Part shown: positions 45,327 to 49,538 of the stretch, piece by piece
Layout of the letters: each line of letters opens with the position of its first letter
Numbering within the stretch: position 1 is the stretch's first letter
Assembly: GCA_009783235.1 (NCBI GenBank)
Contig: WRHN01000001.1
Coordinates: 62,001-126,000 of the forward strand
Direction of reading: 5' to 3'
DNA from: Candidatus Saccharimonadota bacterium
Lineage (GTDB): Bacteria; Patescibacteriota; Saccharimonadia; Saccharimonadales; Saccharimonadaceae
DNA: 64,000 bases
Program-made: the position numbers and the translations under genes
Notes under the pieces: generated by a model
Told to the model about the DNA's origin: nothing
The model's input: only the letters and a program-made list of their open reading frames with translations
Databases searched by the model: none

Positions 45327-45635
45327 AAAAAGGTACTCAAGGGCAATAAGAGGATGCCTAGACATATACTACCGATGAAGGACGTGAGAGGCTGCGATAA
45401 GCTTCGGGGAGCTGCCAATAAGCTTTGATCCGGAGATGTCCGAATGGGGAAACCCGCCGTGGGGAAAGCCACGGGCACGGTTAAGTGAATTCATAGCTTA
45501 ACGCGAGGAGACCGTCTGAACTGAAACATCTTAGTAAGACGAGGAAAAGAGAATAAATAATGATTCCGAAAGTAGTGGCGAGCGAAATTGGAACAGCCCA
45601 AACCTTTTAAGTTTCAATCATATCTTACTTTGCTT

Positions 45636-46055
45636 ATGCACCGTTGACCAAAGCACGGGATTCTCCTGGGTGAGTTGTTAAAGTCGCAAACTTTGGTGCA
45701 CAGCAAAGCGAAAACGAGTTGGTTTACAGTGGTAGTTGGATTGTCCATAGACACCAGTACCCCCCCGCGCTTATCGCGCGCCTACCGCTCGTTTTCATCG
45801 ACATGTAGCTCAAGCAGAGCGCTTTGTCGGTCGCTATAGTGGCCAATAAAGAGGTGGGGGCTCGTATCCCTTCATGTCGACCAGCCCTGTTAGCTTAAAG
45901 CAAAGCGTTCACCTAGGGGGTGAAAGATTTCTAGGTGCAAATCCTGGACAGGGTACCAGAATACTTAAGGCGTGCTTGCGCGTTTTTCTGGTAGGGCTCC
46001 TTATGGGGCACAAAAGGCGAGGGCGCGCTTTAAGCGCCCTCAGCCTCATAAAATC
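45636..46055 (+). other. 23S intervening sequence 1 (domain I) with tRNA-like domain
   Basis: The insertion sits at the tip of a long helix: CAATCA..TCTTACTTTGCTT (45615-45635) pairs with its complement at 46056-46076. Inside are several perfect stems, for example GAAAACGAG/CTCGTTTTC, TCGACATG/CATGTCGA, CCAAAG/CTTTGG and GAGGGCGC/GCGCCCTC. It has no credible reading frame and no group I core (P7/P3 motifs) that I can find. A complete tRNA-like cloverleaf occupies 45884-45958. It is probably a structured expansion that is either kept or excised by RNase III at the base stem. Confidence 0.85.
45884..45958 (+). tRNA. tRNA-like element inside 23S (Pro-AGG-like)
   Basis: All four arms fold. The acceptor GCCCTGT pairs with ACAGGGT, followed by A and CCA. 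D-stem is GCTT/AAGC with a 6-nt loop that lacks G18G19. The anticodon stem is TTCAC/GTGAA with loop CTAGGGG: U33 is present, the anticodon would be AGG (Pro) and position 37 is G. The variable region has 6 nt. The T-stem is CTAGG/CCTGG with loop TGCAAAT, which keeps T54, C56, A58. The missing GG in the D-loop and an A34 anticodon argue against a normal bacterial tRNA-Pro. A tRNA mimic or a captured, decaying tRNA is more likely. Confidence 0.6.
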
Positions 46056-47104
46056 AAGCAAAGTAAGATGTGATTGATATGGCTTACCGGCCAATGCTTA
46101 AGGGTGTTGTGAGTTAACATAATTTTAGGATTTAGGACTTTCATTTGAGAGTTTTAAATCTTAAAACCAACAGCGGTAACTGAGTGGATAATGATACAAA
46201 TAACATTGCTAGTAGAAGGAACTGGAAAGTTCCGCCAAAGACGGTGACAGCCCGGTATACGAAAGTGGTGTTGACATTATGTATGTTTTCTCGAGTAGGA
46301 CGGGGCACGAGAAACCCTGTTTGAATCTGGCAGGACCACCTGCCAAGGCTAAATATAGTATATGATCGATAGCGAACTAGTACAGTGATGGAAAGGTGAA
46401 AAGAACCCCGGGAGGGGAGTGAAATAGAGCCTGAAACTTATTGCCTACAAGGAGTCGGAGGGGGCTTGTCCCCTGACGGCGTGCTTTTTGTAGAACGATC
46501 CAGCGAGTTAATTTTATGTGCAAGGTTAAGCCAATTGGCGTAGCCTCAGTGAAAGCGAGCCTGAATAGGGCGACTCAAGTACATAGGATTAGACCCGAAA
46601 CCGGGTGACCTAACCATGAGCAGGCTGAAGCTGCCGTAACAGGTAGTGGAGGGCCGAACCGTAGAGCGCTGCAAAGCTCCCGGATGACTTGTGGTTAGCG
46701 GTGAAATGCCAATCGAACTCGGAGATAGCTGGTTCTCCTCGAAATAGCTTTAGGGCTAGCGTCATGTGATATTTGTTGGGGGTAGAGCTCTGAAAAGGAC
46801 TGGGGCTGGAAACGGTACCCACCCTTATCAAACTACGAATACCGATAAAAACTATCATGGCAGTCAGAACGGCGGAGCTAAGTTCGTCGCTCAAAAGGGA
46901 AACAGCCCAGATCATCGTCTAAGGTCCCTAAATATACACTAAGTGGGAAACAAGGTGAAATTTCTTAAACAGCGAGGATGTTGGCTTAGAAGCAGCCATT
47001 CATTTAAAGAGTGCGTAACAGCTCACTCGTCAAGAGATTTTGCGTGGAAAATGTAACGGGGCTAAGTGTATTACCGAAGACATGGACTTCTTGCGATGAA
47101 CAAA

Positions 47105-47716
47105 GTTTATGATATAATGTCAGCATGACAAAAGCGATTTTGATTCACGGCACATCAAGTAAAACGAGTATTACGATACGCAGTTTCCAACAGCAAGTAA
47201 TTCTCATTGGTTTCCGTGGTTATCGAAGGAGTTAGTGGTTCGCGACATTCATGCAGTTGCGGCCGAAATGCCAAACTCATTTTACCCTGTGTATGAAATC
47301 TGGAAACAAGAATTCGAACGCTTCCCGCTTGAAGATGACACGATTTTAGTCGGCCATAGTTGCGGGGGGGGGGTTCCTTATACGTTATCTAAGTGAGAAT
47401 AATGTAAAAGTTGGAAAAGTAGTTTTTGTTGCGCCATGGCTCGGAATAACTAAGACGGCCGATACAGAATGGTCAAATACGCTTGATGAAAACTTCTTTA
47501 AATTTGAAATTAACAGGAAGTTAGTTGACAGAACCGACGGAGTTTTGTTGTTTGAATCGACAGACGATGAAAGTCCTATCAAGGAAAGTGTAAAAATCTT
47601 GAAAGATGGAATCGACAATATGAAGATTACAACTTTTGACGATAAAGGACACTTTACTTTTGAAGATTTAGGAACAGTTGAATTTTCTGAATTACTTAAC
47701 GAAATAATTTCATAAA
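47105..47716 (+). other. 23S intervening sequence 2 (helix 45) with protein gene
   Basis: The insertion caps helix 45, a known site of bacterial 23S insertions. The stem TTGCGATGAACAAA (47091-47104) pairs with TTTGTTCATCGTAA (47718-47731). The interior is a promoter plus a hydrolase-like reading frame on the rRNA strand. The flanks match normal 23S (GGGGCTAAGTG before, GTGGTAGAGGAGCGTTC after). Confidence 0.9.
47125..47715 (+). pseudogene. RBBP9/YdeN-type serine hydrolase, frameshifted, inside 23S
   Basis: From ATG 47125 to TAA 47715 there are exactly 197 codons' worth of bases, the normal length of a RBBP9/YdeN alpha/beta hydrolase. The pieces read MTKAILIHGTSS, then HWFPWLSKELVV, EDDTILVGHSCGG (nucleophile elbow), VVFVAPWLGITK, and TTFDDKGHFTFEDLG (catalytic His). 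They lie in three frames: one base is missing near 47162, and a run of ten G at 47364-47373 has one base too many. The two shifts cancel. TATGATATAAT precedes ATG by 6-7 bp. It is either decayed or two homopolymer/sequence errors hide an intact gene. Confidence 0.75.
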
Positions 47717-49027
47717 TTTTGTTCATCGTAAGGAGTGGTAGAGGAGCGTTCCTATCGGCTGTGAAGCCAGATCGTGAGGTCTGGTGGAGCGTTAGGAAGT
47801 GAGAATGCTGGAATGAGTAACCATAAGGCAGGTGAGAATCCTGCCGTCCGTAAGAGCGAGGTTTCCTGGACTATCGTAATGATTCCAGGGTTAGTCGGGC
47901 CTAAGCCGAGGCGTATAGCGTAGGCGATGGACATCAGGTTAATATTCCTGAACTGGCAACAGCTTAGTTAACGATTCACATTTAATAATCAGGAGCGGAT
48001 TCTTGGTATGTATCCGTCTAACCGTGTGTCCCTTTTGGGCGCCGGGAATGAAACGATTTCTTCGGAAGTCGAATTCCTGAGGATAGGATGGCAAGAAAAG
48101 TCAGTTAACATGTGGTTGTGGCCACCCGTACCGCAAACCAACACAGGTGCTCGAGTCGAGTAGACTAAGGATTACGAGAGAACCTTTGCTAAGGAACTCG
48201 GCAATACAGCGACCGTAACTTCGGGATAAGGTCTGCCTCCACACCAAGTGTGGTAGCCGTGATTTCTGCAAAACAAGACAATGTCAGGAAAATTCAGTGA
48301 TGAATTTCTAGTGGAAATTGCGACGTGCTAACACATTTAGTGTGGAGGCCGCAGCTAAAGAGCCCACGGAACTGTTTATCAAAAACACAGGTCTCTGCTA
48401 ACACGAAAGTGGATGTATAGGGGCTGACTCCTGCCCAATGCTGGAAGGTTAAGGTGAGTGCTTCACGGTGCGAACTGAAGCCCTAGTCAATGGCGGCGGT
48501 AACTATAACCGTCCTAAGGTAGCGAAATTCCTTGTCAGGTAAGTTCTGACCCGCACGAATGGAGTAATCATGTGGGCACTGTCTCAGCAAAGGACTCGGT
48601 GAAAGTGCATTGGCGGTAAAGATGCCGTCTGTCCGCACCAGGACGAAAAGACCCCGTGGAGCTTTACTACAGCTTCGCATTGTTGTGGGTTCTAACATGT
48701 GTAGTATAGTTGGGAGACTTTGAAGCTGATACGCTAGTATTGGTGGAGTCGCAATGTGAAATACCAACCTTGTTATAATTTACATCTAACTTATGCCGTT
48801 ATCCGGCATGAGGACCGTGCGTGGTGGGTAGTTTAACTGGGGCGGTTGCCTCCTAAAGAGTACCGGAGGCGTTCAAAGGTTGGCTAACTACGGATGGAAA
48901 TCGTAGTGATAGTGTATACGCAAAAGCCAGCTTGACTGTGAGGAGTACATTCCGATCAGAGACGAAAGTCGGAGTAAGTGATCCGCTGGAATAACATTAT
49001 GTTAATGCATGTGGGAGTGCCAGCGCA

Positions 49028-49060
<33 letters not shown>

Positions 49061-49092
49061 TATAGCGCCCAATAGTTCACATAGACGGCGCT

Positions 49093-49212
<120 letters not shown>

Positions 49213-49538
49213 TTATATCCGGTGTGGACGTCGAAACTTGCGAAGATTTGCCCCTAGTACGAGAGGACCGGGGTGAACGCACCTCTGGTGTATCGGTTGT
49301 GGCCACCTGCCGCATTGCCGAGTAGCTATGTGCGGATCAGATAAGCGCTGAAAGCATATTAAGCGCGAAACTGACTTCAAGATTAGGTTTCCTAGGACAC
49401 TAATAGACGATTAGTTTGATAGGCGCAAGGTGGAAGCATGGTAACATGTGAAGCTGAAGCGTACTAATAGTCCATCGACCTTTTTTGCTACAATGAACTC
49501 AGGAAAAAGTGTGAACTTTGTCTTGAGCTCATTGTTAA

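Follow-up and report, generated by a model that had tools for sequence, protein, structure and literature searches.

The 23S rRNA gene of this Candidatus Saccharimonadota bacterium, which lies within the 64,000-nucleotide stretch of DNA that was analysed (the window), contains, at the tip of a hairpin in domain I, an insertion of 420 nt, and within the insertion two abutting modules are, close to certainly, of tRNA origin. The favoured explanation, to which about an even chance is given, is that the insertion is of the IVS type, that it carries a captured tandem pair of tRNAs, and that it would be excised from the rRNA by RNase III. The relevant features are as follows, in window coordinates.

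45327-49487, + strand: 23S rRNA gene (RF02541, 2446 bits, model positions 1-2925 of 2925; the sole 23S match found in the genome)
45614-45635, + strand: 5' arm of the base stem (inverted repeat, 22 nt, 95%)
45636-46055, + strand: insertion of 420 nt at the tip of the domain I hairpin (spacing, E. coli mapping, fold z -7.8)
45637-45798, + strand: 5' part of the insertion, structured, with no recognisable tRNA (fold z -2.4; the tRNA model lists nothing at E <=10)
45799-45883, + strand: TL1, tRNA-derived cloverleaf (RF00005, R1, pairing; present in the minimum-energy fold)
45884-45958, + strand: TL2, tRNA-derived cloverleaf with anticodon AGG (ARAGORN, RF00005, R1; present in the minimum-energy fold)
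45959-46055, + strand: 3' part of the insertion, three hairpins (fold z -3.5)
46056-46077, + strand: 3' arm of the base stem (inverted repeat, 22 nt, 95%)
47091-47731, + strand: second 23S insertion, in helix 45, with a frame-broken serine-hydrolase-like gene (spacing, E. coli mapping)

The 23S gene reads normally on both sides of the domain I insertion according to RF02541, inside a contig of 276,045 bases, and its copy number was taken from an own-genome search with the 5' part of the gene, which gave one match. Because RF02541 matches from end to end and only one 23S gene was found, the gene is presumably in use. RNase III is encoded in the genome, and an Rfam scan of the window places a bacterial RNase P RNA gene approximately 2 kb downstream. 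The 23S gene still adjoins gyrA, and the 16S gene (G000:C1:247829-249427) is located on the same contig at a distance of approximately 136 kb, the two rRNA genes being unlinked; relatives such as G093 have the 16S gene between gyrA and the 23S gene, and in G313 and G195 separate contigs carry the 16S and 23S genes. The genome's own tRNA-Ile(gat), tRNA-Ala(tgc) and tRNA-Val(tac) genes are away from the rRNA genes, unlike those of relatives, in which tRNA-Ile(gat) and tRNA-Ala(tgc) are near the rRNA genes in 8 of 9 loci looked at, most of them also with tRNA-Val(tac).

The original prediction of a 420-nt insertion in domain I agrees with both the spacing and the mapping of the gene: the site lies in the interval bounded by the positions that align with E. 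coli nt 282 and 308, and the spacing across it is 624 in the window versus 162-460 in the other 48 of 49 distinct measurable regions. The prediction was correct that a long stem closes the insertion, and this stem is present in the minimum-energy fold, but it is not a perfect stem of the 21-bp class: it is 22 nt long and 95% complementary, with one G.U pair by inspection. Positions 45610-46085 fold far better than 100 shuffled sequences (z -7.8), and the parts of the hairpin have z scores of -2.4, -2.7 and -3.5. By eye, some tRNA-like traits can be seen in 45637-45704. The largest open reading frame overlapping the insertion is 67 amino acids, and a long S23-like reading frame is absent from it. 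An origin as a group I or group II intron was rejected, as no intron model matched at E <=10; at the same threshold, Rfam matches in 45590-46110 were limited to tRNA and a sub-threshold STnc210.

The downstream module, TL2, had been predicted as a complete cloverleaf with a 3' CCA, and ARAGORN places a tRNA-Pro(agg) precisely on 45884-45958, where RF00005 scores 46.9 bits (E 6e-9) in a search of 45590-46110, above the gathering cut-off of 29. Neither the gathering scan of the whole window nor the own-genome RF00005 search (45 hits) lists TL2, presumably because of the speed filters in such wide scans. All 21 of its 21 pairs are canonical, its anticodon loop has seven bases, its D-loop is AAAGCA, its T-loop is TGCAAAT, and it ends in ACCA; U33, G37, T54, C56 and A58 are present and G18G19 are absent, exactly as had been claimed. 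The prediction overlooked a second cloverleaf, so that the count is two. TL1 scores 38.6 bits with RF00005 (cut-off 29) in a search restricted to 45795-45887. With R1, a covariance model built from 35 class-I tRNAs of this genome, its score is 33.3 bits (filters off, E 6.5e-8); it is not listed by ARAGORN, by the wider Rfam scan of 45590-46110, or by R1 with default filters. It also has 21 of 21 canonical pairs, with a D-loop of AAGCA, a T-loop of CTCGTAT and a 3' ACCA, but it is without U54 and A58, and its anticodon loop is swollen to approximately 20 nt that form a hairpin of their own in the minimum-energy fold. Both modules match the models end to end, and there is no spacer between them; another zero-spacer tRNA pair occurs elsewhere in the genome (L067, 128-202 and 203-279).

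Scores of this kind stand far above background. The runner-up R1 score across the entire 23S gene is 7.1 bits, and with filters off no further hit inside the insertion exceeds 5.6 bits. The best R1 score in 20 loci with the 23S of relatives (77,611 bases, filters off) is 11.8 bits; in seven more loci (21,880 bases), 11 spacer tRNAs score 80-89 bits and everything after them at most 13.8 bits. In 71 loci with 23S pieces, among them the window (68 distinct loci, 152,882 bases), the only tRNA that ARAGORN reports is TL2; as ARAGORN does not see TL1, this count could overlook a module of that kind in a relative.

As tRNAs, the modules are non-canonical. G18G19 are absent from both, and their D-loops are shrunken. 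Some of these traits have to be read with caution: the tRNA-Cys of this genome likewise lacks GG in the D-loop window and carries G55, so these two traits alone are no proof of decay, and GG is missing from a rough D-loop window in 6 of the 74 class-I tRNAs in hand, TL2 included. Nor is the CCA of the modules special here, since 45 other tRNA genes listed for the genome encode it. The 35 class-I tRNAs from which R1 was built score at least 52.5 bits with it, compared with 41.6 bits for TL2. With the elbow bases of the D-loop gone from both modules and the anticodon loop of TL1 swollen, decoding by the modules has very probably been lost. A hand tally of 11 conserved unpaired positions counts four lost in TL2 and six in TL1. 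In a crude simulation of neutral decay (30,000 runs per setting), all 21 pairs were kept in 1.4% of runs at two losses, 0.29% at three, 0.07% at four and 0.003% at six; the D-loop losses may go back to a single deletion, which makes the lenient figure the safer one. The simulation suggests, rather than proves, that pairing within the modules has been under selection.

The source of the tRNA pair was sought in several places. Neither module is a copy of one of the genome's own tRNA genes: among eight comparisons listed per module, identical positions number no more than 56 (of up to 93) for TL1 and 53 of 77 for TL2 (the slice used for TL1 being one base off at each end). Among 85 distinct tRNAs, the nearest to TL1 is tRNA-Ile(gat), and for TL2 tRNA-Ile(gat) and tRNA-Arg(cct) tie, all with low scores; no conclusion about isoacceptors follows, because spacer tRNA-Ile genes are over-represented in the set and because tRNA-Ile is, in our judgement, near the consensus. 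Descent of the modules from spacer tRNAs is a possible lead, and the likeness between the D-arms of TL1 and TL2 may mean that one copied the other. In phages, the insertion has no match at E 1e-5 and TL1-TL2 has none at E <=10; in plasmids, TL1-TL2 has only 20-nt matches (E 5, three records) at E <=10. Some match to TL1-TL2 at E <=1 is present in 189 of 392 genomes of the class, the best non-self match being 21 nt (E 0.0068) and the longest, among the matches listed, 42-46 nt at 76% identity; these were read as chance and rejected as a source. Also rejected were seven viral contigs with a 17-base D-arm pattern, in which ARAGORN finds no tRNA gene. The idea that the cloverleaf is a relic of tRNA-targeted integration lacks support, given that the tRNAs sit inside the insert and that the largest overlapping reading frame is so small.

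The form of the insertion is that of an IVS, in which a small tetraloop is replaced by an extended stem-loop with complementary borders that RNase III cuts (PMC4990558); those of Coxiella, for instance, are 428-444 nt on a 28-bp stem (PMC4990558). Here likewise an extended stem-loop replaces the tip of a hairpin, and terminal inverted repeats form a long stem. The site, on the other hand, is outside helices 9, 25 and 45, which that source gives as the commonest (PMC4990558). Because the form fits this description and RNase III is encoded, excision is the leading inference. A long stem, with a structured segment of 420 nt above it, would have taken the place of the short tip of a domain I hairpin, the two tandem modules of that segment most likely representing a captured pair of adjacent tRNA genes. 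As the rRNA matures, RNase III would cut the 22-bp stem at the base, the pieces of the 23S rRNA would function while held together by pairing, and the excised RNA would be degraded. The stems that have been kept might reflect selection for compact, self-contained folding that spares rRNA assembly. Besides the unusual site, the lack of an S23-like frame and the occurrence of the element in a single genome count against this reading, as does the strong structure of the interior, which would be needless in an RNA that is excised and degraded.

That same structure, found throughout the insertion, fits better with retention, according to which the folded arm stays in the mature ribosome and the modules are now structural rRNA. 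This is the main rival, possible though not probable. Retention is also favoured by the complete pairing of both modules while their loops changed, an outcome with neutral frequencies of 1.4% or 0.07% depending on the losses assumed; the persistence of stems depends on the time since capture, however, and so may be less telling than it looks. Against retention are the nearly perfect 22-bp base stem and the presence of an RNase III gene. A stem of 22 bp has the length of an RNase III substrate.

It is unlikely, by comparison with either of these, that the modules act as tRNA mimics at which RNase P, with the encoded CCA as an aid, cuts the transcript (at 45798/45799 and 45883/45884), aiding excision or releasing stable RNAs that do not decode. 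Processing by RNase P is possible because a 7-bp acceptor stem and a 5-bp T-stem, followed by ACCA, are complete in both modules; the RNase P RNA gene is nearby, and PMC4810234 mentions non-coding RNAs that enlist RNase P by mimicking tRNA. The tRNA elbow is a recognition site for both RNase P and RNase Z, however (PMC4810234), and neither module can form it in the canonical way; G18 and G19 are absent from both modules, as are U54 and A58 from TL1. A dual precursor, in which tRNA-processing enzymes including RNase P would cut domain I of the pre-23S rRNA and release two non-decoding tRNA-like RNAs, is distinctly improbable.

An artefact or chimera of assembly is highly improbable: the element is known from one genome and the reading frame in helix 45 is interrupted twice beside base runs, but the arms flanking the insertion pair with each other, the 23S sequence is normal on both sides of it in a long contig, and the modules are no copies of the genome's own tRNA genes. 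Finally, that the rRNA yields a functional tRNA-Pro(AGG) from TL2 is scarcely credible in spite of the ARAGORN call, the 46.9 bits, the intact stems, U33, G37 and the CCA, since the genome has three canonical tRNA-Pro genes (GGG, CGG and TGG), which make decoding very unlikely, and these start with C1 whereas TL2 pairs G1 with U72 and is without G18G19; the deficit in R1 score points the same way, although by itself it does not exclude function, because class-II tRNAs for Leu, Ser and Tyr, which are outside R1, score 39.9-47.4 bits. The predicted anticodon AGG agrees with the gene-finder call, and a tRNA-Pro function lacks support.

In the relatives, the site is occupied by a short hairpin, with a UUCG cap by eye in 7 of the 20 loci displayed, and three relatives (L046, L015 and L030) have different extra DNA at or near its tip. 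Among the 394 genomes of the family, the insertion matches only its own, and the 393 others have no match; this absence is informative only for genomes with a 23S gene, because many assemblies lack one (a 23S match is present in 135 of 294 genomes of the order, own included). By GyrA, identity to the nearest relatives is 76-77%, and among 80 GyrA neighbours listed the majority carry the label Candidatus Saccharibacteria, TM7 or unnamed bacterium. In five of the nearest genomes, each with a GyrA match of at least 800 residues, two 23S blocks lie 24 nt apart in G298 and 2 nt apart in G309, leaving no room for the insertion; in G334 only the first 117 bases match, and G348 and G304 have no match. 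Other enlargements of domain I were noticed in the course of these comparisons. By eye, the family member L046 (G112) has two different insertions, of approximately 130 and 200 nt, in neighbouring domain I hairpins. Two loci of the same order, L041 (G079) and L030 (G031), share a repeat-like segment of 23S domain I that starts with GTGAGACYAA and ends near GGTTTTGTCTCAT, and that is seen twice in L041 by eye; it might be a small mobile element that inhabits rRNA hairpins.

The 23S gene has a second insertion, in helix 45, which maps to approximately E. coli 1167-1182 and gives a spacing, by coordinates, of 656 in the window versus 21-146 in the 34 loci listed. It is closed by a 14-bp stem (47091-47104 with 47718-47731, one G.U pair by inspection), and its fold is much less distinctive than that of the domain I hairpin (z -1.3 with 20 shuffles, versus -7.8). 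It contains the broken hydrolase-like frame, of which the middle piece matches PF06821 below the cut-off (19 versus 22 bits) and the C-terminal piece has no convincing match in Pfam or PDB. The C-terminal piece is 52% identical to part of a 198-aa homologue with an open frame in G294; when this piece was used as query, the sole copy found in the genome was the one inside the 23S gene. Its only group II match is sub-threshold (17.7 bits, gathering 49). Being at a known IVS site, this insertion would count toward the IVS reading of its neighbour in domain I.

The domain I insertion points to other structured RNAs as a possible source of rRNA insertions, and it offers a natural test of whether enzymes that process tRNA are able to work within an rRNA. 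Among the matches listed in the open-access literature (titles and the starts of abstracts), no description of a tRNA inside a bacterial 23S insertion was found. The closest known systems are the bacterial 23S IVSs of Salmonella, Leptospira, Coxiella and Alphaproteobacteria, which are similar in having a stem-loop of a few hundred nt in place of a hairpin loop, with terminal inverted repeats, and whose hosts, like this genome, encode RNase III; they differ in that the insertion described here is at another site, has two tRNA-derived modules as cargo and no S23 reading frame, and that its excision is one that we infer. The tRNAs of 16S-23S spacers are also close to rRNA genes, but these modules are inside the 23S gene and non-canonical, in a genome where the 16S gene is far away. 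Fragmented rRNA genes of organelles can have tRNA genes between their pieces, those of oyster mitochondria being an example; there, too, tRNA genes fall within the span of an rRNA gene, but the rRNA is in separate pieces, whereas here the modules are on a hairpin of an otherwise continuous bacterial 23S gene. A speculative literature on homology between tRNA and rRNA concerns ancient resemblance; it shares the theme of tRNA-like sequence in rRNA, whereas this is a lineage-specific insertion that passes the Rfam cut-off for tRNA. In a survey of CPR rRNA insertions, those of Saccharibacteria are at most 250 bp in 64 of 66 cases and are without introns or homing endonucleases (PMC11270868, J Bacteriol 2024), and the word tRNA is absent from the main text of that survey (PMC11270868). 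The present insertion resembles the surveyed ones in exceeding 100 nt in a CPR 23S gene and in having no intron features, but at 420 nt it is longer than most of them (PMC11270868), and it occupies the sole 23S gene found, in a phylum whose reported rRNA insertions are mostly short.
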